From Prevotella sp. (lineage in GTDB: Bacteria > Bacteroidota > Bacteroidia > Bacteroidales > Bacteroidaceae): a stretch of 47,474 nucleotides of DNA. The stretch is from positions 1-47,474 of the forward strand of contig JAFULM010000027.1 in assembly GCA_017483185.1 (NCBI GenBank), in the 5' to 3' direction. The translations under genes and the position numbers were made by a program. Of the stretch, positions 4,127-47,311 are shown piece by piece. The notes under the pieces are model-generated. The model was not told the DNA's origin and searched no databases. It was given only the letters and a program-made list of their open reading frames with translations. Positions within the stretch are counted from its first letter, which is position 1. Each line of letters opens with the position of its first letter.

Positions 4127-4149
4127 GATAATGAATGGAACCAGACAAG

Positions 4150-4326: not shown

Positions 4327-4357
4327 TTGGCCGTTACGGAAAAACAGACTACCTTTG
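4327..4357 (+). promoter_or_regulatory. ilv operon promoter
   Basis: A −33-like TTGG (4327-4330) and a −7 box TACCTTTG (4350-4357) are 19 bases apart, the spacing expected for the Bacteroidota primary sigma factor. Transcription would start near 4363, giving a leader of about 80 bases before ilvD. Confidence 0.75.
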
Positions 4358-4373
4358 CAGCATATTAGCAACA

Positions 4374-4434: not shown

Positions 4435-4441
4435 TACTGAT

Positions 4442-6244: not shown

Positions 6245-6254
6245 ATTGGAAAGT

Positions 6255-6430: not shown

Positions 6431-6440
6431 GAAAAGAAAT

Positions 6441-8144: not shown

Positions 8145-8146
8145 AA

Positions 8147-8704
8147 ATGAGCATGGAAGAGAAGAAACTATATACATTGTTGGTCTATTCAGAGAACCTT
8201 GCCGGTATTCTCAATCAGATAACTGCCGTATTTACGAGGCGTCAGGTGAACATCGAGAGTTTGAACGTGTCGGCGTCGAGTATCGAGGGAATACACAAGT
8301 ACACCATCACGGCGTGGAGCGACGAGGACCAGATAACAAAGATTACGCGACAGATAGAGAAGAAAATAGACGTGGTGAAAGCATTGTTCTATACGGATGA
8401 GCAGCTTTTCATACGTGAAACAGGTCTTTACAAACTGTCTACGGACGTTGTGCTGAACAATCCGGAAATCTCGCGAACGATACGTCGGCATGAGGCAACC
8501 ATCACGGAGGTTAATCCGACATACGTGATTGTGATGAAGAGCGGACGGACGGAAGAAATTTTGAGCCTGTATAAGGTTCTGAATGAGTTTGAATGTGTTC
8601 TTCAGTACACCCGCTCCGGCCGTATCGCCGTGACGCGCAGCATGCAGGAGGAAGTGACAGATTATTTGGAACAGCGGGAGAAATCAACGATACAAACACG
8701 TTAA
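8147..8704 (+). CDS. ilvN: Acetolactate synthase, small (regulatory) subunit
   Basis: IlvN (185 residues from the ATG at 8147) binds the catalytic subunit and gives valine feedback inhibition. Residues about 5-80 form an ACT domain (KLYTLLVYSENLAGILNQI, VNIESLNVSAS, TITAW). The rest is the C-terminal ALS_ss domain that activates IlvB. The start could also be the ATG at 8153 (MEEKKLYTLL); 8147 is chosen because it sits two bases after the ilvB stop. At 185 residues it is slightly longer than the usual 160-180. No Shine-Dalgarno sequence is visible, as is usual in this phylum. The thioesterase gene follows after 10 bases, so one transcript is likely. Confidence 0.95.
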   Translation: MSMEEKKLYTLLVYSENLAGILNQITAVFTRRQVNIESLNVSASSIEGIHKYTITAWSDEDQITKITRQIEKKIDVVKALFYTDEQLFIRETGLYKLSTDVVLNNPEISRTIRRHEATITEVNPTYVIVMKSGRTEEILSLYKVLNEFECVLQYTRSGRIAVTRSMQEEVTDYLEQREKSTIQTR

Positions 8705-8714
8705 GTAGATTTGC

Positions 8715-9476
8715 ATGGATAAGATAGGACGATATGAATTCATGGCAGAGCCGTTCCATTGTGACTTTACGCACAAACTCTTTATGGGACATCTTGGCAA
8801 CCATCTGCTAAATGCGGCCGATTTTCATTCTACCGAGCGCGGGTTTGGAATGAACTATCTCAACCCGATTCACAAGACATGGGTGCTTTCGCGGCTTGCT
8901 TTGGAAATGGAAGAGATGCCGGCACAGTATGATAAATTCCTGGTGGAGACATGGGTGGAAAGCGCTATGAAGTATTTCACCAACCGAAACTTTCGCGTCG
9001 TAGGACGGGACGGACGTGTGTATGGCTATGGTCGCAGTGTCTGGGCCATGATTGACACTGATTCACGACAGCCGCAAGATATTTTCGCAATACGTGATGG
9101 CGCCATCAACGACTGGATAGAGTCTGAGCATGAGTGTCCGATAGAAAAGAGTTCGCGTGTGAAAATGAATAATGGGGCTGAACTCCGGCGCACAATCGAC
9201 ACCTATTATAATGATGTGGATGTCAACGGACATGTGAATTCGGTGAAGTATATAGAGCATGTACTCGATCTTTTCCCCGTGTCGTGGTATAGTGAGTATC
9301 ATCTGCGTCGTTTCGAGATTGCATACGTAGCAGAAAGTCATGGAGGCGACAAACTCAGTTTCTATGTAGAGCAGACAGGTGAGGAAGAATATTGTGTGCG
9401 TATAGCAAAGTCGGAAGAAAATAGCGAAAATGATGTTGAAGTGTGCAGATGTAAGCTCTGTTTTGTAAAAAAGTGA
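8715..9476 (+). CDS. Acyl-ACP thioesterase
   Basis: A 253-residue double-hotdog acyl-ACP thioesterase (PF01643 family), releasing fatty acids from acyl carrier protein in the cytoplasm. The first hotdog runs from about residue 1 to 145 (FHCDFTHKLFMGHLGNHLLNAADFHSTERGFG split over the helix, NPIHKTWVLSRLALEMEE). The second contains DVNGHVNSVKYIEHVLD, the Asp/Asn-x-x-His active-site type motif. It sits between ilvN and ilvC in an otherwise pure branched-chain amino acid operon. Keto acids from this pathway prime the iso- and anteiso-branched fatty acids that dominate Bacteroidota membranes, so control of branched acyl chains is a reasonable inference, but chain specificity cannot be read from sequence. 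Confidence 0.9.
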   Translation: MDKIGRYEFMAEPFHCDFTHKLFMGHLGNHLLNAADFHSTERGFGMNYLNPIHKTWVLSRLALEMEEMPAQYDKFLVETWVESAMKYFTNRNFRVVGRDGRVYGYGRSVWAMIDTDSRQPQDIFAIRDGAINDWIESEHECPIEKSSRVKMNNGAELRRTIDTYYNDVDVNGHVNSVKYIEHVLDLFPVSWYSEYHLRRFEIAYVAESHGGDKLSFYVEQTGEEEYCVRIAKSEENSENDVEVCRCKLCFVKK

Positions 9477-9483
9477 AAGTAAA

Positions 9484-9515
9484 TTTGGACTTTTCGTTTT
9501 AAATTTGTACTTTTG
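9484..9515 (+). promoter_or_regulatory. ilvC promoter
   Basis: TTTG (9484-9487) and TACTTTTG (9508-9515) with 20 bases between them match both Bacteroidota promoter elements. ilvC can therefore be transcribed apart from ilvDBN. A small hairpin, GTCCGG (9554-9559) with CCGGAC (9569-9574), lies in the 5' leader just before the ilvC start. Confidence 0.8.
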
Positions 9516-9593
9516 CAGCTCATTTAAGTGATAAGAAGTAATTACAAACAATCGTCCGGCTTTATTGACCGGACATAAAAAGATATAATAATT

Positions 9594-10643
9594 ATGGCAG
9601 AAATGAATTTTGGTGGCGTTATCGAAACAGTTGTCACCAACAAAGAATTTTCATTGGAGAAAGCTCGTGAAGTGTTGAAGAATGAGACTATCGCCGTTAT
9701 CGGCTATGGAATTCAGGGCCCCGGTCAGGCATGCAACCTGCGCGACAACGGTTTCAACGTGATTGTAGGTCAGCGTCAGGGCAAGACATACGACAAGGCC
9801 GTGGCAGACGGATGGGTGCCCGGAAAGACACTGTTCTCCATCGAGGAGGCAGCCGAGAAGGGAACAATCATCTGCATGTTGCTTTCAGATGCCGGTCAGA
9901 TTCAGGCATGGCCGACTATCAAACCCTATCTCACAAAGGGCAAGACTCTCTATTATTCACATGGTTTTGCCATCAACTGGAGCGACCGTACCGGTGTGGT
10001 TCCTCCGTCAGATATAGATGTTATTCTTGTCGCTCCTAAAGGCTCAGGTACGTCTCTCCGTACGATGTTCCTCGAGGGACGCGGACTCAACTGCTCATAC
10101 GCCGTATATCAGGATGCTTCCGGCAAGGCAGAGGAGAAGACAATCGCCTTTGGTATCGGTATTGGCGCGGGCTACCTCTTCAAGACAACATTCCAGCGTG
10201 AGGCTACAAGCGACCTTACCGGTGAGCGCGGTTCGCTGATGGGAGCTATCGAAGGTCTTCTGGAGGCCCAGTACGAAGTGCTCCGCGAGAATGGCCACTC
10301 TCCGTCAGAGGCATTCAATGAGACCGTAGAGGAACTCACACAGAGTCTGATGCCGCTTTTTGCACAGAAAGGTATGGACTGGATGTATGCCAACTGCTCT
10401 ACAACCGCACAGCGCGGTGCTCTCGATTGGGCTCCACGTTTCCGCGACGCCATCAAGCCTGTGATGCAGTGGCTTTACTATTCCGTAAAGACCGGCAACG
10501 AGGCTCAAATATCTATCGACAGCAATTCAAAGGCAGACTACCGCGACGGGCTCAACAAGGAACTTGAGGCTATGCGCAACATGGAGATGTGGCGTGCCGC
10601 AGAGACCGTGCGTCAGCTTCGTCCGGAGAACAACGCTGAATAA
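9594..10643 (+). CDS. ilvC: Ketol-acid reductoisomerase
   Basis: IlvC (349 residues) isomerises and reduces acetolactate or acetohydroxybutyrate to the dihydroxy acids used by IlvD. The N-terminal Rossmann domain has IAVIGYGIQGPGQACNLRDNG-type glycine motif at 34-45 and a coenzyme-specificity loop GQRQG at 59-63, whose Arg/Gln content suggests NADPH. The helical knotted domain contains ATSDLTGERGSLMGAIEG and FNETVEELTQSLMPLF with the Mg-binding acidic residues. Length fits class I enzymes. It has its own promoter and terminator, unlike the tightly packed ilvBN-thioesterase block, allowing a high and separate expression level. Confidence 0.97.
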   Translation: MAEMNFGGVIETVVTNKEFSLEKAREVLKNETIAVIGYGIQGPGQACNLRDNGFNVIVGQRQGKTYDKAVADGWVPGKTLFSIEEAAEKGTIICMLLSDAGQIQAWPTIKPYLTKGKTLYYSHGFAINWSDRTGVVPPSDIDVILVAPKGSGTSLRTMFLEGRGLNCSYAVYQDASGKAEEKTIAFGIGIGAGYLFKTTFQREATSDLTGERGSLMGAIEGLLEAQYEVLRENGHSPSEAFNETVEELTQSLMPLFAQKGMDWMYANCSTTAQRGALDWAPRFRDAIKPVMQWLYYSVKTGNEAQISIDSNSKADYRDGLNKELEAMRNMEMWRAAETVRQLRPENNAE

Positions 10644-10680
10644 AGCCAGAGGTACGAATAGAAAGAATTTCTTTATATTG

Positions 10681-10733
10681 AATGTCATGAAAGTTGCATC
10701 TACAGATACTGATGCTCTTTCATGACATTTTCT
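10681..10733 (+). terminator. Terminator after ilvC
   Basis: A perfect 13-bp stem AATGTCATGAAAG (10681-10693) with CTTTCATGACATT (10717-10729), followed by TTTCTTTG. It ends the ilv region. Confidence 0.8.
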
Positions 10734-10848
10734 TTGTATATATTCCGAATTAGTAAAGAATTGGCAAAAAAGCCTAAAAGCCAAATAAATTAAAGGGTTT
10801 TTTTGCGTCTTTAACTATAAAAACCATCGTTTGCTGCATGACACGGCT

Positions 10849-10856
10849 TATCTTTG
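10849..10856 (+). promoter_or_regulatory. Promoter −7 box for superoxide dismutase
   Basis: TATCTTTG is a perfect −7 match. Initiation near 10863 leaves a leader of about 40 bases and rules out the upstream ATG at 10838 as the start. Confidence 0.65.
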
Positions 10857-10903
10857 CAATTGAAAAAAATCTGAGGATAACTAACAATTTAAATTTATTT
10901 ATT

Positions 10904-11512
10904 ATGGAAACAAAGGCAGTAAACGGAAAATTCGAGTTGGTAACTTTGCCATACGCGGCAGATAGTCTTGAGCCCGTCATCAGTTCGTCGACAATAGCCT
11001 ATCATTACGGTAAGCATCTGCAGACGTACCTCAACAATCTCAATGACGCCCTGCCTGGAAGTCGTTATGTAGGAATGACTCTGGAGGACATCGTCAGGGT
11101 GGGGGATGGTGCTGTTTTGAACAACGCCGGCCAGGTGCTTAACCATAGTCTCTATTTCACTCAATTTCGTCCGGCTGGTGGCCAACCGTCATTGCCATCG
11201 GGAAAGTTGGCCGAAGCCATAGCAGAACAGTTTGGTTCTTATGAGGCTTTTTGTGCGGAATTTGTAGCGAAAGGCGTTTCTCTCTTTGGTTCCGGATGGG
11301 TCTGGCTGTCTGTTGACAGCGAGCGTAAACTCATCATCACCCAAGAATCCAATGCCGGTAACCCTGTGCGGCACAATTTTAAGCCTTTGCTTACATTTGA
11401 CGTATGGGAGCACGCCTATTATCTGGACTATCAAAACAGGCGTGCGGAGCATCTCCCGCAATTGTGGAAGATAGTCGATTGGAAAGTTGTGGAGCGTAGA
11501 TTTGAGGAATAA
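10904..11512 (+). CDS. sodB: Superoxide dismutase, Fe/Mn family
   Basis: A 202-residue cytoplasmic iron/manganese superoxide dismutase that converts superoxide to oxygen and hydrogen peroxide. The metal ligands are His34 (IAYHYGKH), His81 (VLNHSLYF), Asp166 and His170 (FDVWEHAYYLDY). Gln77 in NAGQVLNH corresponds to the second-shell Gln of Fe enzymes, and the Leu after GKH (KHLQTYLNNLN) is seen in the cambialistic enzymes of Porphyromonas and Bacteroides, so use of either Fe or Mn is possible. The start at 10904 fits the mature family length; a longer frame from 10838 overlaps the promoter. The gene is monocistronic, between its own promoter and a strong terminator. Confidence 0.95.
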   Translation: METKAVNGKFELVTLPYAADSLEPVISSSTIAYHYGKHLQTYLNNLNDALPGSRYVGMTLEDIVRVGDGAVLNNAGQVLNHSLYFTQFRPAGGQPSLPSGKLAEAIAEQFGSYEAFCAEFVAKGVSLFGSGWVWLSVDSERKLIITQESNAGNPVRHNFKPLLTFDVWEHAYYLDYQNRRAEHLPQLWKIVDWKVVERRFEE

Positions 11513-11530
11513 AGATATACGACGGCTAAA

Positions 11531-11578
11531 AAATAAGGGTGTAGTTGAAATGGGAAAAATTCAACTACACCCTTATTT
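11531..11578. terminator. Bidirectional terminator, sod / HIT gene
   Basis: A perfect 18-bp stem (11531-11548 with 11561-11578) begins with AAATAAGGG and ends with CCCTTATTT, giving A/T tracts on both sides. It serves the convergent superoxide dismutase and HIT genes. Confidence 0.85.
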
Positions 11579-11604
11579 GATGTATTTTCAGATTCTGTTC
11601 TGAA

Positions 11605-12030
11605 TTACAACTCTTTCTTCAGAGCCTCAGCCATCTGTGCATATTCTTCATCCGTGAGATAGACCTCTTTCGGATTCATGCGGAAGACACCACCGAAGTC
11701 GGGACCTCCGACATATTTGGGTATGAGATGGAAATGGAGATGTTCCAGCGTGTCGGAATATGCGCCGTAGTTTATTTTTGCCGGATTGAATACTTTCTGC
11801 ATTGCGCGTGTGACTCTTGCCACGTCGCTCATGAATGCGTTTCGCTTCTCGTCGCTCAGCAGATTGAGATCATCCACGTGCTCGTCATAGGCCACAAGGC
11901 AACGGCCGTGGTATGTTTGTTCTTTGAATATGAACATGCGTGACACGCTCAGATGTGCCACTTCAATCATAAGGCTTTTCAGCGTCTCATTGTTCTGACA
12001 ATAGAGACATTCTTTGGGATCACTTTTCAT
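11605..12030 (-). CDS. HIT family nucleotide-binding protein
   Basis: A 141-residue histidine-triad protein. The motif HLHFHLIPKY near residues 97-106 carries the His-x-His-x-His nucleotide-binding and hydrolase site of the family, whose members act on adenosine phosphoramidates or dinucleoside polyphosphates. The first residues include CLYC, half of a possible Zn site, although the second pair of ligands is not evident. The middle YHGRCLVAYDEHVDDLNLL is typical HIT-fold sequence. It is transcribed alone from a −7 box at 12084-12091 and converges on superoxide dismutase. The exact substrate cannot be inferred. Confidence 0.9.
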   Translation of the reverse strand: MKSDPKECLYCQNNETLKSLMIEVAHLSVSRMFIFKEQTYHGRCLVAYDEHVDDLNLLSDEKRNAFMSDVARVTRAMQKVFNPAKINYGAYSDTLEHLHFHLIPKYVGGPDFGGVFRMNPKEVYLTDEEYAQMAEALKKEL

Positions 12031-12083
12031 TGTAGTTTTTCGTTTTTATTATGTTTGATTTGTTTTGCGGGTTAATCACCATA

Positions 12084-12091
12084 CAAAGGTA
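12084..12091 (-). promoter_or_regulatory. Promoter −7 box for HIT gene
   Basis: CAAAGGTA on the plus strand is TACCTTTG on the minus strand, 54 bases upstream of the HIT start. No −33 match is seen at the proper distance. Confidence 0.55.
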
Positions 12092-12225
12092 AGAATAATT
12101 TTTAGAAATGCGAGGCGCTAACCGGTTTATGTTTCAAAAGATGTGCAAATACGTTGAGTCAATCGAATGGTATGTCATGTCGGTTTGCGCTCGTTGTTTT
12201 GTTGACGGAGGAAAACTTACTGTTT

Positions 12226-14154
12226 TTAAGTGTGTGTAGAATGTTCCTGCTGTTTGGCCTCCAACATTCCGTCAAAGGAGATTAGTTCTTCCTCATCCAA
12301 CAGATGTCGTAGTGCCGCGTCGATTTGTTCAAAAGGATGTCTGATTTTGCAGAGTTCCGTTACGTGATGTCGTTTCCCGTCAGTGAAGAGAGACCGTATT
12401 TCAGCCTCTGTTTCGGCGATGGTCTTGTCGTTTACGATTTCGTGACGATGTTCCAGACACACGTCGCAGGTGCCACATTCCGTTCCGGTGTCTTCTCCGA
12501 AGTATCTCAGCAGTAATTGGCTACGGCAGGTGTCTGTCGAAGCGGCGTATGCTGCCATTGCTTCGATACGTTCGATGAACTGCTTTTTGCGGTTGTCGTA
12601 AGCGTCTTTGGGGAATATCAGATGTTCGGGATCCTCTCGTCGTTGTTTGTAGCGTATGACCGGAGTGCGCTTGTGGGGGATAAATCTGAGTATATGTTTC
12701 TGATTGAGAAGTTTCAGATTCATGTAGACTTCGTGAGCGCTGAGACCGGTCAGGTGGGCGAGAAAGCTCTCGTCGATATAGACATAGTCATTGAATAAGC
12801 CTCCGTAGTTGCGCAACATTGCGATGATGAGCTTCTCTTCAGTTTCCGAGTTGTTCTCCAGTCGGTAAAGGTCATTGCGTGATACGCAGAACATGACTTG
12901 TGCATTGTTGTCTTGTTCCTCAATATATTCGATGTATCCTGCGTGATCAAGTATTTTCAGTGCGGCGTCAGCATGTAGCGGGAAGTGTCCGTAGATATGG
13001 CAGAACTTGTCCAATCCAAATTCAAAAGATAAGTTGTAGCCTGCTCCGGTCGGTATCTGGTAGAAGTAAGCAAGGTGTTCATAGACAGTCCTTATGTAGT
13101 CCTTGTCCGGAAATGTGCTCTTTATGCGTTTGTTTATTTTGCCAATGTCGCTTTTGTTCCATAGCAATATTGCGTATGACTTCTTTCCGTCCCGTCCGCC
13201 GCGACCTGCTTCTTGAAAGTATGCTTCGATGCTGTCCGGCATGTCTCTATGGATGACAATGCGTACATCCGGCTTGTCGATGCCCATACCAAATGCGTTT
13301 GTGGCGACCATCACACGTATTTTGCCACTCTGCCATGCTTTTTGTCGCTCGTCTCTGGTTGCGTTATCCAATCCTGCATGATAGTAAGTTGCATCAATGC
13401 CGTTGCCGCACAACAACTCTGCAGTCTCCTTTGTTTTTTTTCGGCTACGTACGTACACGATGGCACAGCCTTCGACACATTGGAGAATATGTATCATTTC
13501 CTGTTGCTTGTTGATTGTCCGTCTGACGACGTAGGCCAGATTCTTACGTTCAAAACTCATGCGGAACACGCGCTTTTCCGCAAACCCCAACCGTTCCTGA
13601 ATGTCGTCGATGACATCCGGTGTTGCTGTTGCGGTCAAGGCGAGTATCGGTGCTGACGGATGGATACGTCGGATATCAGAGATTTTGAGATATGAAGGAC
13701 GGAAATCATATCCCCATTGACTTATGCAATGGGCTTCATCCACAGTGATGAAGCTCACTTGCATGTGTTTCATCTTGGTCTGAAAGATCTCCGAAGCCAA
13801 TCGCTCGGGTGAAACATAAAGGATGCGTATTGCGCCGAAGATGCAGTTCTCAAGTGTCGTGATAATGTCATCCCGCGACATACCGGAGTATATTGCCGCA
13901 GCACGTATGCCCCGCCGCTTGAGATTTGCCACCTGATCCTTCATCAAGGCGATGAGTGGAGTTATGACGATACACACACCTTCTTGTGCCAATGCCGGTA
14001 CCTGAAAGGTGATGGACTTTCCTCCGCCTGTCGGCATCAGCCCCAGAGTGTCGTGCCCGGTGCTGATGCTTTCTATGATTTTCCGTTGGATGCCACGGAA
14101 ATCATCGTAGCCCCAATACTTCCGGAGAATGTCTCTATACTTGTCCGATTGCAT
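12226..14154 (-). CDS. recQ: ATP-dependent DNA helicase RecQ
   Basis: A 642-residue superfamily 2 helicase that unwinds DNA 3' to 5' in recombinational repair. Visible motifs are FRGIQRKII (motif 0), LMPTGGGKSITFQVPAL (Walker A), FITVDEAHCISQWGYDFRPSY (DEAH box and aromatic loop), ALTATA (motif III), NAFGMGIDKPDVR (motif V) and EAGRGGRDG (motif VI). The RecQ zinc site follows with CRSQLLLRYFGE and CGTCDVC. The C-terminus is short and lacks an obvious HRDC domain. ATG 14154 is chosen over the longer frame from 14187 because MQSDKYRDILRKYWGY is family-like and it starts just four bases after the recJ stop, with GGAGGAG upstream. recJ and recQ are thus one transcription unit; RecQ and RecJ act together on stalled forks and breaks. 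Confidence 0.95.
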   Translation of the reverse strand: MQSDKYRDILRKYWGYDDFRGIQRKIIESISTGHDTLGLMPTGGGKSITFQVPALAQEGVCIVITPLIALMKDQVANLKRRGIRAAAIYSGMSRDDIITTLENCIFGAIRILYVSPERLASEIFQTKMKHMQVSFITVDEAHCISQWGYDFRPSYLKISDIRRIHPSAPILALTATATPDVIDDIQERLGFAEKRVFRMSFERKNLAYVVRRTINKQQEMIHILQCVEGCAIVYVRSRKKTKETAELLCGNGIDATYYHAGLDNATRDERQKAWQSGKIRVMVATNAFGMGIDKPDVRIVIHRDMPDSIEAYFQEAGRGGRDGKKSYAILLWNKSDIGKINKRIKSTFPDKDYIRTVYEHLAYFYQIPTGAGYNLSFEFGLDKFCHIYGHFPLHADAALKILDHAGYIEYIEEQDNNAQVMFCVSRNDLYRLENNSETEEKLIIAMLRNYGGLFNDYVYIDESFLAHLTGLSAHEVYMNLKLLNQKHILRFIPHKRTPVIRYKQRREDPEHLIFPKDAYDNRKKQFIERIEAMAAYAASTDTCRSQLLLRYFGEDTGTECGTCDVCLEHRHEIVNDKTIAETEAEIRSLFTDGKRHHVTELCKIRHPFEQIDAALRHLLDEEELISFDGMLEAKQQEHSTHT

Positions 14155-14158
14155 TTTT

Positions 14159-15880
14159 TTACTCCTCCGACGGCATGATGTCTTCAATCTGCAGTTGGAC
14201 CTCGCCTCGTTTATACGTGTTTTCTTCTATTGTATATACGATATTGAATGAGCGTTTGCTCTTTATGTACCGTGCGGCCGAACTCTGTCCGAATGCAATG
14301 CCGTTCATGACGTTGCTCGACTGGCTGTCGACAAGTTCGAGCTTGATGTGCTCCTGATGCCGTCCGACAACTTTGCTCGTCCCGTAATCATATACATTGC
14401 GCGTACAGAACAGCGGTTTGGGATTGCATGGCCCGTGCGGAGCAAATTTTTTCAAGTCTGCATGCATCTTCTTAGTGATGTCCTTGAAGTCTATCACTTC
14501 TTCGATGTCCAGCATGGGCATTGTCTGTTCAGGCATGATGTGTTCCTTGACATACTGTTGAAACCGGCGTCTGAATTCCTTGATGTTTTCAGCTTTGAGA
14601 GACAGTCCTGCTGCGTAAGTATGACCTCCGAAGTTTTCAAGCAGATCGCGGCAACTCTTGATCGCGTCATATATGTCAAATCCGGCGACACTACGTGCCG
14701 AACCGGTAGCCATCCCGTCGTTCAAGGTCAGCACGACAGTGGGGCGGAAGTATATTTCAGTCAGGCGCGAAGCAACGATGCCAATGACTCCCTTTTTCCA
14801 GTTCTCGTCGTAAAGGACAATGGATGACAGATGTTTTTGGCTTTCCAACTTCTCTACGATAGAGTTTGCTTCTTCAGTCATCTGTTTGTCTATGTCCTTG
14901 CGTTGTTCGTTATATTCATTTATGAGACAAGCCTCCGCCATTGCGCGTCCGAAGTCTTTCTCCACAAGCAGTTCGACGGCTTCCTTGCCATTTTGCATGC
15001 GTCCGGAAGCGTTGATGCGTGGTCCTATCTTGAAGACGATGTCGCTCATGGTCAATTCCCGGTTTGTCAGTCCGCAGATTTCGATGATGGCTTTCAGTCC
15101 GACAGACGGACTTTGGTTGAGCTGCTTCAGTCCATGAAATGCTAATGTGCGATTTTCTCCGATGACAGGAACTATGTCTGAGGCGATACTGACGGCGCAA
15201 AAGTCAAGCAGCGGAATCAGTCTTGAGAACGGGATGCCGTTGTTTTTGGCAAAAGCCTGCATGAACTTAAAGCCGACGCCGCATCCGGAAAGGTCGTGGA
15301 AAGGATAGGTCGAGTCCGCCCTTTTCGGATTAAGGATGGCTACGGCAGGAGGCATTTCGTCGTCGGGTACATGATGGTCGCAGATGATGAAGTCTATGCC
15401 AAGGCTTTTGGCATAAGCAATCTCCTCGATGGCCTTGATGCCGCAATCGAGAACGATGATGAGTTTGACACCCGTTTCTTTTGCATAGTCTATTCCTTTA
15501 TGGCTCACACCATACCCTTCTTCATAACGGTCCGGTATATAGTATTCGATATTGGAATAGAACTGTTGCAGAAACTTATACACCAGAGCGACTGCCGTAC
15601 AGCCATCCACGTCATAGTCGCCGTAGACCATGATACGCTCTTTGCGTCCCATCGCATCGTTCAGCCTGTCCACGGCCACGTCCATGTCGTTCATCAGGAA
15701 CGGATCAATCAACTCGTTGAGCATCGGTCGGAAGAATCTTTTTGCCGCCGATTCGGTCTTTATGCCGCGCTGTATCAGCAGGTTGGCGAGAATCGGGCTC
15801 ATGCCGATTTTCTCTCCCAGCTCTTTAGCTGCCTTTTGCCTTTCCGGTGTAGGTGGTTCGTAATTCCATTTGAATTGCAT
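14159..15880 (-). CDS. recJ: Single-stranded-DNA exonuclease RecJ
   Basis: RecJ (573 residues) degrades single-stranded DNA 5' to 3' and resects ends opened by RecQ. The DHH phosphoesterase motifs are clear: MVYGDYDVDGCTAVAL (motif I, DxD), IVLDCGIKA (motif II), ICDHHVPDD (DHH motif) and the DHHA1 part with INASGRMQNG and GSARSVAGFDIYDAI, where GG-H appears as FGGHTYAAGLSL. An OB-like C-terminal domain completes it. Length matches the usual 560-580. Immediately downstream and in the same direction is recQ. The 5' leader is unusual (mini-ORF entry at 15922-15964). Confidence 0.96.
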   Translation of the reverse strand: MQFKWNYEPPTPERQKAAKELGEKIGMSPILANLLIQRGIKTESAAKRFFRPMLNELIDPFLMNDMDVAVDRLNDAMGRKERIMVYGDYDVDGCTAVALVYKFLQQFYSNIEYYIPDRYEEGYGVSHKGIDYAKETGVKLIIVLDCGIKAIEEIAYAKSLGIDFIICDHHVPDDEMPPAVAILNPKRADSTYPFHDLSGCGVGFKFMQAFAKNNGIPFSRLIPLLDFCAVSIASDIVPVIGENRTLAFHGLKQLNQSPSVGLKAIIEICGLTNRELTMSDIVFKIGPRINASGRMQNGKEAVELLVEKDFGRAMAEACLINEYNEQRKDIDKQMTEEANSIVEKLESQKHLSSIVLYDENWKKGVIGIVASRLTEIYFRPTVVLTLNDGMATGSARSVAGFDIYDAIKSCRDLLENFGGHTYAAGLSLKAENIKEFRRRFQQYVKEHIMPEQTMPMLDIEEVIDFKDITKKMHADLKKFAPHGPCNPKPLFCTRNVYDYGTSKVVGRHQEHIKLELVDSQSSNVMNGIAFGQSSAARYIKSKRSFNIVYTIEENTYKRGEVQLQIEDIMPSEE

Positions 15881-15921
15881 TAATATATTGTTTTTTTATT
15901 CTTCTATTTTTCAAGTGCCGT

Positions 15922-15964
15922 TTAGTGGCGACGAATTTCGTTTGTCATAACTTCGTCACCTCCT
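15922..15964 (-). promoter_or_regulatory. Leader mini-ORF with perfect Shine-Dalgarno upstream of recJ
   Basis: On the minus strand AGGAGGTGA (15964-15956) is a full anti-SD match, seven bases before an ATG at 15948 that opens an eight-codon ORF, MTNEIRRH, stopping at 15922. Consensus SD sites are rare in this phylum. GACGAA just upstream of the ATG can pair with TTCGTC inside the ORF, making a small stem that overlaps the start codon. It lies in the probable recJ leader, 41 bases before the recJ ATG. Confidence 0.4.
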
Positions 15965-15989
15965 TTTTGTATATGGCCGATATGGCTTG

Positions 15990-15997
15990 TAAAGTTA
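15990..15997 (-). promoter_or_regulatory. Possible promoter −7 box for recJ-recQ
   Basis: The minus strand reads TAACTTTA, one mismatch to TAnnTTTG. It would give a leader of about 100 bases containing the mini-ORF. The rest of 15998-16111 has no supportable feature. Confidence 0.35.
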
Positions 15998-16111
15998 CGA
16001 ATAAAAAACAAGAAAATGTGAAACAGTAAGCAAGTTTTTGTGTTTTTAAAGAAAAAGGAGTGTGGTAAAGCAAGTGTGTAGTAGCGTATAGTGCGGTTTG
16101 ACGACTTTATC

Positions 16112-16168
16112 GTTTGTCAGACAAACAAGGAGGGATGTGACTTGATTCATTATGTCACATCCCTCCTT
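16112..16168 (-). terminator. Two tandem inverted repeats, likely terminator
   Basis: A perfect 15-bp stem AAGGAGGGATGTGAC (16127-16141) with its complement at 16154-16168, directly beside the small palindrome GTTTGTCAGACAAAC (16112-16126). It lies downstream of the 54-residue minus-strand gene. A weak T stretch follows on the minus strand (TTGTTTGTC). Confidence 0.6.
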
Positions 16169-16207
16169 AATCCAGTTTTATTGTCTCTGGGTGTCTCACT
16201 TTGCATA

Positions 16208-16372
16208 TTATACGATGGATGAAACCAATACTGCAATTATCATGGCTGCTGCAATAAATACCATTAGATAGAAGCTGAATTTTTTGAGTATGCGGTTTCG
16301 TCGTATTGCGTTGAAACTTTGCTGTTTGAATCGGCTTGCTTCATCGCCTTGTATCATGTTCTTCTTTGTCAT
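16208..16372 (-). CDS. Small single-pass membrane protein, 54 residues
   Basis: A short gene from ATG at 16372 to TAA at 16208-16210. The first half is charged and basic (MTKKNMIQGDEASRFKQQ, then IRRNRILKK); residues about 33-54 are strongly hydrophobic (FYLMVFIAAAMIIAVLVSSIV), a single C-terminal transmembrane helix running to the last residue. The basic stretch just before the helix predicts the N-terminus in the cytoplasm. It fills the gap between the cysteine peptidase and recJ and is bracketed by hairpins on both sides (16423-16456 and 16112-16168), as an independent unit would be. No family is recognised. Composition and lack of any competing long frame support it as a real gene. Confidence 0.6.
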   Translation of the reverse strand: MTKKNMIQGDEASRFKQQSFNAIRRNRILKKFSFYLMVFIAAAMIIAVLVSSIV

Positions 16373-16422
16373 TATAGCTTTATTAAAGTGTTGATACTCA
16401 GGATAGATAAACTTTCTCTTGT

Positions 16423-16456
16423 GTACAGCCGAACCTGTTTCCGGATTCGGCTGTAC
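16423..16456 (-). terminator. Hairpin after the cysteine peptidase gene
   Basis: An 11-bp stem GTACAGCCGAA (16423-16433) with TTCGGCTGTAC (16446-16456), starting 25 bases past the peptidase stop. The following minus-strand T tract is weak. Confidence 0.55.
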
Positions 16457-16480
16457 GTCGAGACGATATTGATTTTATTG

Positions 16481-17683
16481 TTATATTCCGAGCTTTTTGC
16501 GGATGTCCTTGGGGATGGCGTTCTTGTTGACCATGAAGTCCATCGTGTTTGCGATGATGAAGGTCTTGGTCATATACCATGTACCTTTGTAGTCGCCGTA
16601 CTCTCCCCAAGAGTTTTTCACCATGTAATACTCCTTTCCATACTGGTCTTTTGCCACACCGTAGATGAGCATACCGTGGTCGTCGGTCAGTTCCCAGTTG
16701 TCATAACGCTCCTGACGCATCTCCTGTGTCGGCACGATTTCGGGAGCCGTGCATCCCAGCGAGTCGTAGAGTTCGGTCTTCTTGTCTCTTGTCAGACGAA
16801 GCCAGCGTGCGGCGTCACTGCCGCTGAGGCTCTGGACCTGCTTCATGTCGTAAGCGTAGGCAGTGCCTTTGCGTGTGAATCCGTCTTCCGAGACGTCACC
16901 GCCCCATGCGATGGTGTAGCCGTTGTCGACAGCATTGTCGATGATGCGCTGCATGTCCTCCATCGGTACGTTCCATGACAGCGGGTTGCGCCAGTTGTCC
17001 TGGACCTCTACGGCAAATGCTGTGTAGAAAGGATGGTGTGTGTAGCTGGTGATGGTCACATAGTCGTTCCAATCGAGACCGAGGCTTGACGCAAACTGCT
17101 GCGGGGTGTATGTCTTGCCTTCATACTTGAACGTCTCGGGGCACTTGCCGAGGTAGGCGTCGAGGATGCCCTGCAGTCCGACTTTCCACTGGCCTGAGAT
17201 CTTTTTGGCTTCGCTTTTGGCGATAGTCGTCACGTAGGGAGTCATCACCTCAAAGAACTCGTTGAAATTGTGGAGTGAGTCGCCGTAAAGGCTTCCGGGG
17301 AAAGGCATGGCGTCCTCGGGGCAGATGCCGTAGTTCTGGAGAACGTAGAGCACGTCGTATGCCGAGCCGCCCTGTGAGAACTGGCAGTCGCCGTGGAGAC
17401 GGACAACCTGCTTGGCGCGGTCCATATAGTTCTTGTTTGCGACGAATGACTCGCAGAGGTCGTAGGTCTTTCCGGATTTCTTCAGTATCTCGCTCTCGAA
17501 ATACGACAGTGTCGAGTAGGCCCAGCAAGTGCCGCTGCGGTTTTGGTCCTTGATGCTCGTGATGGGGTTCTCCTTGATGGTGGTGAACACCGGCTTGTTC
17601 TTGTTGACGGAGTCTTTCTTCTCCTGTGCGTTGGCTCCCACGGCCATGAGGGCGATGAGAGACATGGTTAAAACTTTCTTCAT
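16481..17683 (-). CDS. Secreted C1 (bleomycin hydrolase/PepC-like) cysteine peptidase
   Basis: A 400-residue papain-superfamily peptidase of the C1B aminopeptidase C type. A signal peptide (MKKVLTMSLIALMAVGANAQ) places it in the periplasm, unlike cytoplasmic PepC of lactic acid bacteria. The catalytic Cys53 is in RSGTCWAYSTLSYFESE, the histidine in DDHGMLIYGVA and the asparagine in MVKNSWGEYGDYKGTWYMT. Residues EGG-like SQGGSAYDVLYVLQNYG are also typical. Such enzymes trim peptides from the N-terminus and are common in asaccharolytic or peptide-using Bacteroidota. It lies 63 bases downstream of the M24 aminopeptidase on the same strand, and no promoter is clear between them, so joint expression of two peptide-degrading enzymes is likely. 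Confidence 0.93.
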   Translation of the reverse strand: MKKVLTMSLIALMAVGANAQEKKDSVNKNKPVFTTIKENPITSIKDQNRSGTCWAYSTLSYFESEILKKSGKTYDLCESFVANKNYMDRAKQVVRLHGDCQFSQGGSAYDVLYVLQNYGICPEDAMPFPGSLYGDSLHNFNEFFEVMTPYVTTIAKSEAKKISGQWKVGLQGILDAYLGKCPETFKYEGKTYTPQQFASSLGLDWNDYVTITSYTHHPFYTAFAVEVQDNWRNPLSWNVPMEDMQRIIDNAVDNGYTIAWGGDVSEDGFTRKGTAYAYDMKQVQSLSGSDAARWLRLTRDKKTELYDSLGCTAPEIVPTQEMRQERYDNWELTDDHGMLIYGVAKDQYGKEYYMVKNSWGEYGDYKGTWYMTKTFIIANTMDFMVNKNAIPKDIRKKLGI

Positions 17684-17746
17684 GTTTGTTTGGTTGTTAT
17701 TTGATGTTTCGTTCTTCTATTATTGATGTGAAAAACGGCCGGATGC

Positions 17747-19138
17747 TTATGCCTCCATAAATTTTTCCACGTCCGCTGGATGATAGGGGATGCGATTTTT
17801 GCCGAGGAAGCGGCAGCCGTCTTTCGTTATCAGGATGTCATCCTCGATGCGTATGCCTCCGAAGTCCTTGTATGTCTCCAGCATGTCGAAGTTGAGCCAC
17901 TCCTTGCAGTGACCGCTGGCGCGCCATTCGTCGATGAGTGCGGGGATGAAATAGATGCCCGGCTCGTCGGTCATGACGAAGTTTTCCTCCAATCGGCGTC
18001 CCATGCGCAGACAGTTGGTGCCAAACTGTGTCGACGGGCGTGTCTCATCGTCAAATCCGACATACTCCTGTCCCAAGCCCTCCATGTCGTGGACGTCGAG
18101 ACCCATCATGTGACCGAGACCGTGTGGCAGGAACATGGCGTGGGCTCCGGCCCTTACGGCTTCTTCGGTGTCGCCCTTCATCAGACCGAGCTCTTTCAGA
18201 CGTTCGGTCATCAGGCGGCATACGTCCATGTGGACGTCATACCATCTCACGCCCGGACGTGCGACGTTGAGCGTGTGGTCATGACATTCTTCGACAATCT
18301 TGTAGATTTCCAGTTGACGCTCCGTAAACTTTCCCGAGACAGGATAAGTGCGGGTGTGGTCAGAGCAATAGTCGTCCAGCTCGCATCCTGCGTCACACAG
18401 AGTCAGACGGCCTGCCTCAAGCAGGTTGCCCGACGGTCCTCCGTGCATGACCTCACCGTGTTGGGTGAAAATGGTCGGGAAGCTCACTTTCTGCGAGTGT
18501 GAACCGGCGATGCCGTCCACCTGGCCACCGACGAAACGCTCGGTGACGCCCGGACGTGTCAGCTTCATGGCCGTGGTGTGCATCATGTAGCCCACCTCGC
18601 AGGCCCGTTCGATGGCGTCGATTTCCTGTTGTTCCTTTGTGGCACGCATCTTGACTACGGCCTTTATCAGTTCCAGTGAAGCGGATTCGCGCTGCAGACC
18701 CGGATGTATGCCCAGCAGGTCCATGATCTGTATCATGGTGTCATGCCGGTAGGGTGGCAGAAAATGGATTTTGCGGTGACTTTCCAGAGCCTTGTTGCAG
18801 ATGCTTTTGAGCTCTTTCATCGGTGCCGTGTGGGCCACGCCGCTTTGTGCGGCCATGTCGCTCACGCTGTCCACGGAACCGAACCAGACGATGTCTTCGA
18901 TATCGATGTCGTTGCCGATGAGTGTCTCGCTGTCGTTATCGATGTCAATGACTCCGACCAGTCCGTCACGATGGAGTCCGAAATAATATATGAAAGAGGA
19001 GTCCTGACGGAACGGATAGTATGCGTTTGATGGATAATTGGCCGGCGACTCGTTGTTGCCGAACAATATTATGATGCCGCTGTCCACAAGTTTTCGCAAC
19101 GTCGCGCGGCGGCGCACGTATGTATCAGTACTGAACAT
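17747..19138 (-). CDS. pepP: Xaa-Pro aminopeptidase (M24B)
   Basis: A 463-residue metalloaminopeptidase that removes N-terminal residues preceding proline. The N-terminal creatinase-type domain (residues 1-165) contains FRQDSSFIYYFGL. The C-terminal pita-bread domain shows the two-metal ligands: Asp residues in LCDAGCELDDYCSDHTRTYPVSG, His in LPHGLGHMMGLDVHDMEG, Glu in TDEPGIYF and Glu in GGIRIEDDILIT. No signal peptide is present, so it is cytoplasmic. Length fits E. coli PepP-like enzymes (about 440). It is first in a two-gene unit with the secreted C1 peptidase and is driven from the −7 box at 19177-19184. Confidence 0.94.
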   Translation of the reverse strand: MFSTDTYVRRRATLRKLVDSGIIILFGNNESPANYPSNAYYPFRQDSSFIYYFGLHRDGLVGVIDIDNDSETLIGNDIDIEDIVWFGSVDSVSDMAAQSGVAHTAPMKELKSICNKALESHRKIHFLPPYRHDTMIQIMDLLGIHPGLQRESASLELIKAVVKMRATKEQQEIDAIERACEVGYMMHTTAMKLTRPGVTERFVGGQVDGIAGSHSQKVSFPTIFTQHGEVMHGGPSGNLLEAGRLTLCDAGCELDDYCSDHTRTYPVSGKFTERQLEIYKIVEECHDHTLNVARPGVRWYDVHMDVCRLMTERLKELGLMKGDTEEAVRAGAHAMFLPHGLGHMMGLDVHDMEGLGQEYVGFDDETRPSTQFGTNCLRMGRRLEENFVMTDEPGIYFIPALIDEWRASGHCKEWLNFDMLETYKDFGGIRIEDDILITKDGCRFLGKNRIPYHPADVEKFMEA

Positions 19139-43214: not shown

Positions 43215-43508
43215 GTTAAAAAGGCCCTCTAAACGCCTCCATTTTGCCATTCTTTTCCACGAACTGTCTGACGGTCTCAAATATCGCAAAATAGCGCGTG
43301 CAAGTGTAACCGACTGACTGCGAGATGGTTATGTCGCAAAATCGCGATTTGTGCAACTTTTTGGGGCCAAAAAGCGGCTTTTTCGGGTCCAAAACGCTGG
43401 TTTTTTGCTGCCGTAAGGGCCCCGCGAGGTCGCAACGGCGTGCTCGTTGGATCGCAATGGGGCCGCTTTCGCAATGCAACGGCGGCCCCGTTGCAACCTC
43501 GCGGGGCC
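43215..43508. repeat. GC-rich modular intergenic element, copy 3
   Basis: The left part (43215-43340) aligns with copy 1 at 20600-20740 in the same orientation. The GC-rich core is enclosed by a 19-bp inverted repeat with one mismatch (43418-43436 and 43490-43508, GGCCCCGCGAGG…) and contains CAACGGCGTGCTCGTTGGAT and CAACGGCGGCCCCGTTGCAA. 43509-43757 shows no gene, but carries the second copy of the TCACTCCAAATGTCG motif at 43671-43685. Confidence 0.7.
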
Positions 43509-43670
43509 GCCGCTGCAAAACAGTCGCATGGGAGACACGATTTTTCGACCATTCGGAGTCAAAATACTAACATTTTCGTTTGTCCGAAATTTTTTAGCAA
43601 CAATGTTTACAATGTCACATATTGGCGAGGGGCGGGGTGGGGTTGTCGTCGGCAGGGATGACTTCCGGTG

Positions 43671-44294: not shown

Positions 44295-44831
44295 ATGATA
44301 GAGACCGAAAGACTGATTCTCAGACCGTGGGAGGAAACGGACGCTGAGGCTATGTTCAAATATGCGAGTGACCCGGACATCGGGCCCATTGCCGGCTGGC
44401 CACCTCACACGTCGGTGGAAAACAGCCGGGAGATTATCCGGACAGTCTTCGCCGCGCCGGAGACGTATGCTGTCGTGCTGAAGGACACGGGCGAGCCGGT
44501 CGGCAGTTGCGGTATAATGTTCTCCGACAGTCTTCACTCTGCGGAGATGAAACAGCGCGAAGCGGAAATCGGCTATTGGATAGGCAAGCCCTATTGGGGA
44601 CAAGGCCTCATCCCGGAGGCGGTCAAGGCTCTGCTGACAAGAAGTTTCAATGACCTGCATCTTGATGCTGCGTGGTGCGGATATTATGACGGTAACACAA
44701 AGTCGAAACGGGTCATCGAGAAATGCGGCTTCAGGTTTCATCATACGAATCATGACGTGGTTTCTCCGCTCGGAGATAAGCGGACGGAGCATTTTTACAG
44801 AATGACAAGGGAGGATTTTTATACTCAATAG
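44295..44831 (+). CDS. GNAT family N-acetyltransferase, RimJ/RimL type
   Basis: A 178-residue GCN5-related acetyltransferase. It starts MIETERLILRPWEETDAEAMF, the typical RimJ/RimL-like N-terminus. The acetyl-CoA pyrophosphate loop is in GYWIGKPYWGQGLIPEAVKA (Q/RxxGxG/A form: WGQGL), and the later NTKSKRVIEKCGFRFHH matches the N-x-x-S-x-x-V-x-x-K-x-G-F motif. Substrates could be protein N-termini or small amines. Preceded by the direct-repeat spacer and followed after 30 bases by the EVE-like/nuclease gene; no promoter of its own is clear. Confidence 0.92.
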   Translation: MIETERLILRPWEETDAEAMFKYASDPDIGPIAGWPPHTSVENSREIIRTVFAAPETYAVVLKDTGEPVGSCGIMFSDSLHSAEMKQREAEIGYWIGKPYWGQGLIPEAVKALLTRSFNDLHLDAAWCGYYDGNTKSKRVIEKCGFRFHHTNHDVVSPLGDKRTEHFYRMTREDFYTQ

Positions 44832-44861
44832 TGAAGTACGATAAATGAAAATACAGAAATT

Positions 44862-46442
44862 ATGAAAAAAGATTTGTGGAATATGTATAAGGAAAGCTCA
44901 CGAGGAAAAGATTGTATAGAGCTTTTCAACCCGGAAATCGAAAATATTTCTGAGGGAGCCTTTAATATTTGGCGATATGCTTCAAACTGGGGAGAAGATA
45001 AAGTAGAAGACTCTTTCATAGAAGATATTGATGGCATGTTTTGGTTGTGGGACACCAATTTGTCTCAGCGCGGTTTCTTTCCTGATAAATGGACACGCGA
45101 AAGTTATCAGAAATTTGCAGAGGAATATGATATTCTAAGACCTTTAGTTGATGATAACGGCGAATTGCAGTATCGTGATGATGAAACCATAGTCTTTGAT
45201 GAAAGCGCAATCATTTTAAGAAAAGACCAATATCGTATTAAGGCTGCTAATATACCTATCCTGTCGTTGCTTTTCTACTATAGTTTTGAATTCTTCAAAC
45301 CGATACTTCTCCCAAGACGCTTTGACGTTATTCAAAGAAATTGTGATGCATTGGGGATAGAGATACCTTCGATACCGCGCTCAAAGGATTATAAAGCATA
45401 CATAAACTATTACTTTGAAATTTGTGAAAAGTGGAACAAATTTCAAAAAGAGCATGAAATGACTGATGCTGAACTTTGTGCATGTATCTATGATTTCGCA
45501 AATATGCTCACGGAAACCAGTACCAGTCCTAAACTGCCAAAACCAACAAATGTATGGCTGACCGGCGCAAGTGGCAGCGACTTCGCTTTTCTTGACTCTT
45601 TGGGCAAGACGCCAAAAGGAAACGAACAGAGCATCTGGGCTTGTAATGAAAGAACAAGGCGTGGAGACATCATTGTTCTTTATTGTACATCGCCAAGAAG
45701 TTATATACACTCCATTTGGAGGTCAAATAGCGGCGGCATATTCAATCCTTTCGATTATTACCATTGCAGGACAACTGTATGTGACGGCATTTTGACTCCA
45801 CAGATTTCTTTCAAAGACTTGAAGAATGATGATTACATGTCGCAAGTTCCAATTGTTAGGCGTAATCTGCAAGGTATAAATGGCATAGAATTATCTGCGA
45901 AGGAGTATTCTGAATTGATACGAATGATAGAAGAAAGAGGGGGAGACAGTGCATCTTTTCCTCAGCTATACGAAGGTTCTAATGTCGATTTTGGTGAAAT
46001 AACACTTGAAAAGCATATTGAAGAACAGATACTGATTCCTGTGCTTGAAAAACTTGGATATACAAATACTGATTGGACACGTCAACTTTCTCAGAAAGCA
46101 GGACGTAAAGAAAAAGCAATACCTGATTTTGTATTCTTTCCAAAAGGCGAAAAGCATTTTGAAAACGCTCCGATGATTATCGAAGCTAAACTTGATATGG
46201 CACCAGTCCAAGAGCTTCAGAAAGCGTTTAAACAAGCGTTATCATATGCCCGTTTATTAAGAGCCTCAATCATGGGTATATGCGATAAAGAACGACTTGT
46301 TTTATACAAAGTCAATACGGATGGAAGTGCGGATAGGAATAATCCCATTTTTGAGAATCATTGGTCTGCAATATATTCGGATTCAGAAGTTGGTGCAACC
46401 TTGAACCATTTGATAGGGAGAGAGGTTGTTGTTAACATCTAA
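44862..46442 (+). CDS. EVE-like plus HsdR_N-type PD-(D/E)XK protein, putative modification-dependent nuclease
   Basis: A 526-residue protein that I cannot match to a named family over its whole length. Residues 1-220 are helical, of unknown type. Residues about 228-345 (VWLTGASGSDFAF, SIWACNERTRRGDIIVLYCTSP, YIHSIWRS) have the order of an EVE/PUA-like domain: a Trp strand, a 'GD-hhhhY' strand and a following 'I-x-x-hW' strand; the family binds modified bases in DNA or RNA. Residues about 380-490 resemble the N-terminal nuclease of type I HsdR: Glu387/388, Asp422 in IPDFVF, Glu441-x-Lys443 in MIIEAKLD, and Gln458 in KQALSYARLL. Together they suggest an enzyme that recognises modified DNA and cuts it (type IV-like defence), an inference. 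The gene is markedly AT-rich compared with its neighbours, a sign of transfer. No methyltransferase or partner gene is adjacent. Confidence 0.7.
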   Translation: MKKDLWNMYKESSRGKDCIELFNPEIENISEGAFNIWRYASNWGEDKVEDSFIEDIDGMFWLWDTNLSQRGFFPDKWTRESYQKFAEEYDILRPLVDDNGELQYRDDETIVFDESAIILRKDQYRIKAANIPILSLLFYYSFEFFKPILLPRRFDVIQRNCDALGIEIPSIPRSKDYKAYINYYFEICEKWNKFQKEHEMTDAELCACIYDFANMLTETSTSPKLPKPTNVWLTGASGSDFAFLDSLGKTPKGNEQSIWACNERTRRGDIIVLYCTSPRSYIHSIWRSNSGGIFNPFDYYHCRTTVCDGILTPQISFKDLKNDDYMSQVPIVRRNLQGINGIELSAKEYSELIRMIEERGGDSASFPQLYEGSNVDFGEITLEKHIEEQILIPVLEKLGYTNTDWTRQLSQKAGRKEKAIPDFVFFPKGEKHFENAPMIIEAKLDMAPVQELQKAFKQALSYARLLRASIMGICDKERLVLYKVNTDGSADRNNPIFENHWSAIYSDSEVGATLNHLIGREVVVNI

Positions 46443-46540
46443 CAGATAGTGATATTACACAAACTCAACTAATTTGCGATTCTATATATTTAAAATATAT
46501 AATAGATATAAGAAACACCAAGAAGTAAAATAGAAATACA

Positions 46541-47311
46541 ATGAAGATACATCAAATAACGTTCAGCCCAACGGGCGGCACGCGAAGAGTCTGCGAATAT
46601 ATATGCGAGGGGATTGACGCGAGGCCGCTCGTGACAGACCTTTGCGTGAAGCAGGGGCAAATCAGAGTGCCGGACATACACGAAGAGGACTTGGTCATTA
46701 TCGCCATGCCCGTGTTTGCCGGACGTGTACCGGCCTTGGCGGTCGAGAGATTCAAGCATATTCAGAGCAACCATGCAAGGTGTGTGGTTGTGGCGGTATA
46801 TGGCAACAGGGCGTATGATGACGCTCTGCTCGAAATGCAGGATGTGGCTACGGAAATGGGATTCCGTCTCATTGCCGCCGTCAGCGCCGTTGCCGAACAC
46901 AGCATCGCCCGGGTGTATGCAGCAGGAAGACCAGACGCAGAAGACCGCAAGGAGCTGGCCGCTTTCGGAGCTGCTATAATAAATAAGTTGGAAGACACGG
47001 ATACATACATGCCTTTGTCGTTGCCCGGCAATCGTCCATACAGAGCAGGCAACACAGGACCGTTCCCAACGGCAGACGAACGGTGTACAGATTGCGGCAC
47101 GTGTCAGGAGCTTTGCCCTGCTGACGCCATACCAGCCGACAATCTCAGAAGCGTCAACAAGGAAGCATGTATCTCATGTATGCGCTGCCTCTCCGTATGC
47201 CCGACCAAAGCAAGGAACATCGGGCATGTGGAAATGATGGTTACAGAGAAACTGAAAACGTTGTGCGCAACGAGAAAAAGCAACGAACTGTTTTTTAAAA
47301 GAAAGAAATAA
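46541..47311 (+). CDS. Flavodoxin-ferredoxin fusion (EFR1 type)
   Basis: A 256-residue redox protein. Residues 1-165 form a flavodoxin-like domain: the FMN phosphate loop is TFSPTGGTRRVCEYI (residues 7-21) and MPVFAGRVPALAVERF lines the isoalloxazine site. Residues about 185-235 hold two 4Fe-4S motifs, CTDCGTCQELCP and CISCMRCLSVCP, of the 2[4Fe-4S] ferredoxin type. Such EFR1-family proteins shuttle electrons between a reductant and an unknown acceptor; length agrees with the family. A 98-base gap separates it from the EVE-like gene and shows no clear promoter. Confidence 0.9.
   Translation: MKIHQITFSPTGGTRRVCEYICEGIDARPLVTDLCVKQGQIRVPDIHEEDLVIIAMPVFAGRVPALAVERFKHIQSNHARCVVVAVYGNRAYDDALLEMQDVATEMGFRLIAAVSAVAEHSIARVYAAGRPDAEDRKELAAFGAAIINKLEDTDTYMPLSLPGNRPYRAGNTGPFPTADERCTDCGTCQELCPADAIPADNLRSVNKEACISCMRCLSVCPTKARNIGHVEMMVTEKLKTLCATRKSNELFFKRKK

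Follow-up and report, generated by a model that had tools for sequence, protein, structure and literature searches.

One gene near the end of a Prevotella contig raises the question of whether a single protein could suffice to recognize DNA with modified bases and to cut it. The window, i.e. the whole stretch of DNA analysed here, is a complete contig (C14) of 47,474 bases, and the first-pass annotation of its letters had read this gene as an EVE-like domain fused to an HsdR_N-type nuclease. We asked whether the domains are what they seemed, where the family occurs, and which function best explains both.

The gene and its three-part protein

The open reading frame lies exactly where it had first been placed: it starts with ATG at 44862, ends at 46442 on the forward strand, and encodes 526 amino acids. 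The open reading frame is real. Comparison with an 89%-identical relative (L013) gives a dN of 0.051 against a dS of 0.546, and the protein is therefore under purifying selection; the ratio comes from this single pair, as four more pairs attempted gave no usable dS. The claimed AT-rich composition also holds: the gene has a GC content of 0.383 and a GC3 of 0.336, against a GC of 0.52–0.53 in four measured neighbours and a GC3 of 0.58–0.63 in the two adjoining genes. This is the pattern expected of a single acquired gene, and the gene was probably acquired as such. No exact 10–30-base repeat, as a target-site duplication would leave, is shared between 44401–44900 and 46381–46900. A second strongly AT-rich stretch (GC 0.31–0.39) occupies positions 1–2500 at the opposite contig end and contains a 316-residue open reading frame (1138–2088) with membrane segments by eye.

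The gene is flanked by a GNAT gene and an EFR1 ferredoxin gene. The earlier naming of the DUF3795 and GNAT neighbours stands, both being above Pfam cut-offs, and the “flavodoxin fusion” proves to be a match to the NCBIfam EFR1 ferrodoxin model (80.5 bits; cut-off, 75 bits). A close EFR1 gene is found in 4 of 120 genus genomes, the window's own genome counted. A conserved operon was considered and rejected: among the loci compared, the DUF3795 and EFR1 neighbours are common only to L013. Neither prophage nor defence genes were recognized beside the window copy in the ORF list or by Pfam and NCBIfam. Between htpG and the DUF3795 gene (43216–43570) lie overlapping short open reading frames on both strands in G+C-rich, repeat-like sequence (by eye), perhaps an intergenic repeat.

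The features of the gene are as follows:

44862..46442, forward strand: gene for a 526-residue protein made of an N-terminal region, an EVE domain and a PD-(D/E)XK nuclease (open reading frame with ATG start; 26-row alignment)
44862..45530, forward strand: N-terminal region, residues 1–223 (family alignment; under phrog_37753)
45549..45926, forward strand: EVE domain by profile comparison, residues about 230–355 (hhalign against 49 PF01878 sequences)
45870..45884, forward strand: Q337-G-I-N-G341, candidate DNA-intercalating wedge (Q337 and G341 invariant in 26/26; equated by eye)
45999..46376, forward strand: HsdR_N/VRR-NUC-like PD-(D/E)XK nuclease, residues about 380–505 (hhalign and weak Pfam matches)
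46125..46235, forward strand: active-site codons D422, E441, K443 and Q458 (invariant in 26/26; aligned to HsdR_N-like segment)

Conservation was read from an alignment of 26 full or near-full proteins, 14 of them encoded in bacterial genomes or MAGs, 2 on plasmids and 10 on distinct viral contigs. Loci left out of its rows were L017 (frame broken), L005 (contig end) and L001 (the window itself); the fragments L006, L007, L008/L012, L009 and L010; and L035, L119 and L127, which repeat other loci.

Profile comparison assigns the middle domain to EVE. When the middle domain of the 26 proteins is compared by hhalign with Bacteroidota members of PF01878 (49 sequences), 120 columns of a 125-column template align at a score of 64.0 and a probability of 97. 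None of 200 gap-trimmed column permutations reaches this score (maximum 21.2); in a first run the score had been 48.6 and the highest of 200 permutations 26.7, without outliers. Gap trimming matters here: untrimmed permutations gave freak scores of 133.7 and 136.3 (2/100), which stem from gap columns at the profile end, and of 129.3 (1/100) for the N-terminal region, for which the gap-trimmed control was likewise used. In an earlier 16-row run the N-terminal and nuclease parts score 10.0 and 12.1 against EVE, and an ASCH-type PUA-like domain was rejected on scores of 13.3–13.7 only. Because the profile score of the middle domain (64.0) beats both the permutations (21.2) and ASCH (13.3), we take residues about 230–355 to be an EVE domain by sequence. 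Pfam EVE gives no HMMER match in the window protein even at E 10; nevertheless, the EVE-like call of the first-pass annotation is borne out by the profile–profile comparison and its controls. The claim rests on profiles, since single divergent EVE sequences score low against the family (best L075, 25.4). Ten of the comparison sequences, used as a profile, recover the EVE structures 2gbs, 1zce, 2ar1, 2eve and others; sequence searches of the PDB for relatives returned chance-level matches only, and one with an EVE-HNH segment returned none.

Nine positions of the EVE domain are invariant in 26/26 proteins (W259, G268, D269, Y274, P278, P296, Y300, Q337 and G341), and W259, Y300 and Q337 are candidate base-reading positions. 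The two motifs first noticed, GDIIVLYC at 268–275 and IHSIW at 282–286, are where they were said to be; G268, D269, Y274 and P278 are indeed invariant, but IHSIW is only partly kept, with W286 in 21 of the 26. The correspondence of Q337 to a wedge was made by eye and differs from the profile alignment by about one or two columns; near the wedge place, five divergent defence-like EVE sequences carry NQG, RQA or PQA, and five stand-alone EVE sequences in the same alignment carry RLS. Canonical EVE genes occur in 0 of 60 near relatives and in 110 of 198 phylum genomes. Downstream of two homologues the next gene (L018:11672–12787 and L016:11601–12932) opens with an EVE-like stretch, NPTIS...GD, by eye; in L018 an HD_4 match below threshold (E 1.6e-4) comes after it, and that gene possibly encodes an EVE-HD defence protein.

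The nuclease is supported in the same way. Against the N-termini of seven HsdR_N-like proteins, the C-terminal part of the family scores 91.8 (probability 98.4), compared to a maximum of 20.1 in 100 permutations. The seven were taken from eight proteins whose match is confined to the nuclease part, L025 being left out, and as the family's own profile picked them, the match is partly circular; independently, six of the seven carry HSDR_N-type domains by Pfam, four of them above cut-off. Queried singly with Pfam at E up to 1, 16 members match HSDR_N in 13 cases (best E 0.0017), HSDR_N_2 in 10 (best E 0.00021) and VRR_NUC in 8 (best E 0.00013). The window protein scores 18.5 bits against VRR_NUC (gathering threshold 23.8), 13.7 against HSDR_N (25.1) and 13.4 against HSDR_N_2 (25); because all three scores lie under the thresholds, we file the domain as related to these families and not as a Pfam member. 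The HsdR_N-type call thus holds on the profile score, its permutation control and the weak Pfam matches together. Invariant in 26/26 are E383, D404, P421, D422, E441, K443, Q458, S461 and Y462, which include the whole catalytic set (E), D, E-x-K and Q-x-x-x-Y (E383, D422, E441, K443, Q458 and Y462); the four residues named at the outset as the PD-(D/E)XK set are where they were placed.

The N-terminal 220 residues are of another kind. Their opening is conserved, W-x-x-Y-K/x-x-S-x-x-G (W6, Y9, G15 and F22), their middle is variable, and a second conserved stretch spans residues about 128–215, with S135, P147, P169 and F194 invariant in 26/26. Pfam and NCBIfam give no family above cut-off for this region, in line with the guess that it is an undescribed domain; the single suggestion is a sub-threshold terminase-like Pfam match (E 0.22) in 2 of 16 members. 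The family phrog_37753 (function not annotated) covers residues 2–485 of the window protein and matches 16/16 members. Searched for in other architectures, the N-terminal region matched in 2 of 296 phylum genomes, and both are full family members. A weak and tentative likeness to the pre-EVE part of McrB fusions scores 21.9 (probability 15.9) over 16 columns, compared to a maximum of 17.9 in 100 permutations, the segments being hand-chosen. In a remnant locus (L010, G159:C25) the N-terminal W-x-L-Y motif runs directly into the nuclease core, apparently by internal deletion.

Distribution and genomic contexts of the family

Homologues are found in genus relatives, other Bacteroidota, Treponema/Spirochaetales MAGs, two Deinococcus plasmids and viral contigs, and among named sources Prevotella MAGs hold the closest relatives of the protein; a third Deinococcus record, matching over 27% of the query, was set aside. 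The distribution is patchy. Among 199 relatives searched, 10 have some match, the window's own genome counted, but a close near-full-length copy is present in only 3 (own genome, G006 and G075), the others being fragments, contig-end cuts or distant; among 395 phylum genomes 10 match, of which 8 cover the nuclease part alone, and full length is found only in the own genome and G467. One viral-contig scan with the window protein as query gave no match. PADLOC does not match the window protein and gives, for 16 family members, three single-member matches only, each to a different model; NCBIfam does not name the window protein. In the tree, the phage-borne members form one clade, and the Treponema copies branch from within those of the window's genus, which suggests gene transfer between phyla.

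The viral contigs offer the most regular context. Directly upstream of the gene and on the same strand lies an HTH or S24 repressor-type gene in 8 of 10 contigs (L033, L034, L120, L122, L123, L124, L125 and L126), with the domains confirmed by Pfam in all eight; the repressor-type proteins differ among the eight, and since L124, L125 and L126 are near-identical, the independent cases number about six. The two exceptions are L036, where the gene adjoins a tape-measure gene, and L121, where the gene start is missing. An integrase lies on the other side of the gene in 4 of 10 (L033, L034, L125 and L126); in five of the six contigs without one, the sequence ends 0–1.4 kb past the gene. L034 also has terminase and portal genes, which confirm its phage nature. 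By their domains, the upstream genes would be repressors, and with the gene in this position, co-expression with the lysogeny switch is likely.

In other chromosomes the neighbours change from genome to genome (ORF lists, by eye). On the Deinococcus QL22 plasmid the gene adjoins the BREX genes pglZ and brxL, with a DarT-type gene near; on the other Deinococcus plasmid it is near a nonspecific nuclease and a methyltransferase. The genes around this homologue (L023, Deinococcus sp. QL22 plasmid, 1298–18320) form a dense group that looks defence-related: besides pglZ and brxL it contains an N-6 methylase, a DarT-domain protein and a pair of GTPase genes, one of them IIGP-like. A Fic-type gene and a partner lie close to the homologues L101 (3344–4808) and L015 (12585–14086); Pfam recognizes Fic only in L101 and ORF6N only in the L015 partner. 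McrBC membership was rejected: Pfam finds no McrB AAA+ GTPase or McrC in the window protein, and none was recognized by eye among adjacent genes.

Probable function, target base and competing explanations

The product of the gene is probably a modification-dependent (type IV-like) restriction endonuclease that works as a single protein, and prophages and hosts alike would use it against phages whose DNA is altered. The initial reading of a stand-alone defence protein is strengthened by the repressor-linked prophage copies, the one BREX neighbourhood, the patchy distribution and the AT-rich single gene. Starting from the observed domain families, invariant catalytic residues, patchiness and prophage and BREX contexts, the mechanism would run as follows: on incoming phage DNA, the EVE domain would flip a modified base out of the helix into a pocket that holds conserved aromatics; the invariant Q337 would occupy the vacated place; and the C-terminal PD-(D/E)XK nuclease (D422, E441, K443 and Q458) would then cut the DNA nearby. 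The N-terminal 220 residues probably mediate oligomerisation or nuclease gating. The gene would travel as a lone cassette, captured by chromosomes and plasmids, and a prophage copy behind a repressor gene would be expressed in lysogens and exclude competing phages. Several observations weigh against this reading: the missing HMMER match to Pfam EVE, the missing PADLOC match of the window protein, the window copy standing beside no recognized prophage or defence genes, the two viral contigs that lack the repressor arrangement, and the methylases of the carriers and of some loci described below. The weakest links are the presumed dependence on modified bases and the presumed role of the N-terminus.

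Methylases of the carriers bear on the target base. Twelve carrier genomes were scored, i.e. all bacterial genomes of the alignment but G125 (cut-off copy), with plasmids and viral contigs aside: C5-cytosine methyltransferases are present in 9/12, against a genus background of 69/100, and N6-methylases in 12/12, counts in which some methylases may be silent and some genomes incomplete. The window's own genome has two adjacent C5-cytosine methyltransferase genes (G000:C23:7544–10277). Because carriers encode both types, a loose reader of 5mC or m6A would be self-toxic; the 9 of 12 carriers argue against indiscriminate cutting at 5mC, and plain 5mC or m6A in host contexts is an unlikely trigger. 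Recognition more likely depends on a hypermodification of phage DNA or on a strictly defined sequence context, and we favour a hypermodified phage base. A bolder version of the same reading, which we put forward tentatively and regard as doubtful, is a class of type IV enzymes that consist of one protein, travel on prophages, are coupled to the repressor and have a new N-terminal gating domain; their EVE reader would recognize a hypermodification other than 5mC or m6A, and the enzymes would tolerate the host methylases and serve mainly prophage-versus-phage competition in Bacteroidota.

The closest competitor is an EVE-guided ribonuclease or abortive-infection effector, which would read a modified RNA base (in tRNA, for example) and cut RNA or host DNA on infection. 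Binding of modified RNA is also ascribed to EVE domains in the available part of PMC7641849; the prophage slot suits abortive infection equally well; and N-terminal gating would fit. However, the likeness of the nuclease is to HsdR_N, which DNA restriction enzymes carry, and the QG-x-N motif is like that of EVE-McrB proteins by eye, and we judge this explanation unlikely.

Quite unlikely, in our view, is a DNA-damage or structure-specific nuclease, or a toxin, whose EVE-like domain no longer reads bases and responds instead to ends, single strands or a partner protein. The VRR-NUC family includes structure-specific nucleases, and the VRR-NUC-like signal, the divergence of the EVE domain beyond the reach of HMMER and the same-direction Fic-type or Fic-like gene pair near two relatives would agree with such a role; yet conservation of the EVE positions equals that of the catalytic residues, and no partner gene recurs beside chromosomal copies (ORF lists, by eye).

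Very improbable is a small restriction–modification pair in some hosts, in which a nearby methylase would protect the host while sites left unprotected would be recognized by the EVE domain or the N-terminus. A D12 adenine methylase (L020:1611–2714 and L021:6192–7295; Pfam E about 1e-19) precedes the homologue by about 2.7 kb, or two to three genes, in the near-identical Treponema-type loci L020 and L021, and methylases lie 2.4–5 kb from the gene on both Deinococcus plasmids; at such loci a methylase partner is conceivable. However, genes including a MatE transporter separate methylase and homologue in L020/L021, the QL22 methylase would belong with the BREX genes, no methylase was recognized beside the window gene (ORF list, Pfam and NCBIfam), and none adjoining the gene was recognized by eye in the listed Bacteroidota and phage loci. 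A phage-biology nuclease for host DNA breakdown or recombination that merely spread to chromosomes is hardly credible either: the single phage clade and the existence of a PHROG family speak for it, but the gene sits with a repressor and not with lytic genes in the eight contigs above, the only chromosomal pair measured shows purifying selection, and INPHARED (50,697 records; queries, the window protein and L033) contains no phage match.

Should the preferred reading of a modification-dependent restriction endonuclease be true, a compact single-gene reader-plus-cutter would join the enzymes targeting modified DNA, and would do so in bacteria with little-studied phage defences; temperate phages would keep the enzyme beside the lysogeny switch to exclude phages hidden by altered bases; and the reader could serve as a tool for mapping modified bases.

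Comparison with known systems

Type IV restriction endonucleases of EVE-PD(D/E)XK build were predicted, in substantial variety, by Bell, Wolf and Koonin (2020; PMC7641849); they share the core of the present protein, an EVE reader and a PD-(D/E)XK nuclease in one chain. Because this core architecture was predicted in 2020, the gene is less novel than first thought. Compared with the class description in the available part of that paper, and not with the members of its census, the present family adds a long N-terminus and the prophage repressor slot: the architecture class is known by prediction, and the family is a further version of it whose N-terminal 220 residues belong to no named family. 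Among the listed matches of literature searches on EVE with McrBC, HsdR, VRR-NUC, prophage and superinfection, the family is not described.

Several characterized or better-known systems resemble it in part. VcaM4I, an EVE-HNH enzyme, reads 5mC/5hmC by base flipping, with Q128 filling the gap of the flipped base and aromatics stacking on the base (PMC7897488); the fusion of an EVE reader to a nuclease is common to both, and the glutamine wedge and aromatic positions are comparable by eye. As far as the available part of that paper describes it, VcaM4I differs in its HNH nuclease and its N-terminal EVE domain, and its specificity was shown by experiment, whereas base dependence in the present family is predicted. 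The EVE-McrB fusions of McrBC type IV systems have a similar QG-x-N motif in EVE and likewise a helical region before it; the present protein has no McrB GTPase or separate McrC and carries its nuclease in the same chain, and the tentative N-terminal likeness spans only 16 columns. Type I HsdR N-terminal nucleases and VRR-NUC proteins (PF13588, PF04313 and PF08774) have the same catalytic set, including QxxxY, but the present protein has no helicase or N6-methylase attached and falls below the Pfam cut-offs.

Two further enzymes compare in setting. HHPV4I, an m6A-dependent SRA-wH-HNH enzyme of an archaeal virus, is likewise a virus-encoded, modification-dependent restriction enzyme with a proposed role in excluding rivals, and differs in both reader and nuclease, going by the available part of its description (PMC10101028). 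BrxU, a type IV enzyme of the GmrSD kind, sits beside BREX, as does one Deinococcus copy of the present gene, whereas it belongs to another protein family and uses nucleotides, according to the accessible portion of PMC8565348.
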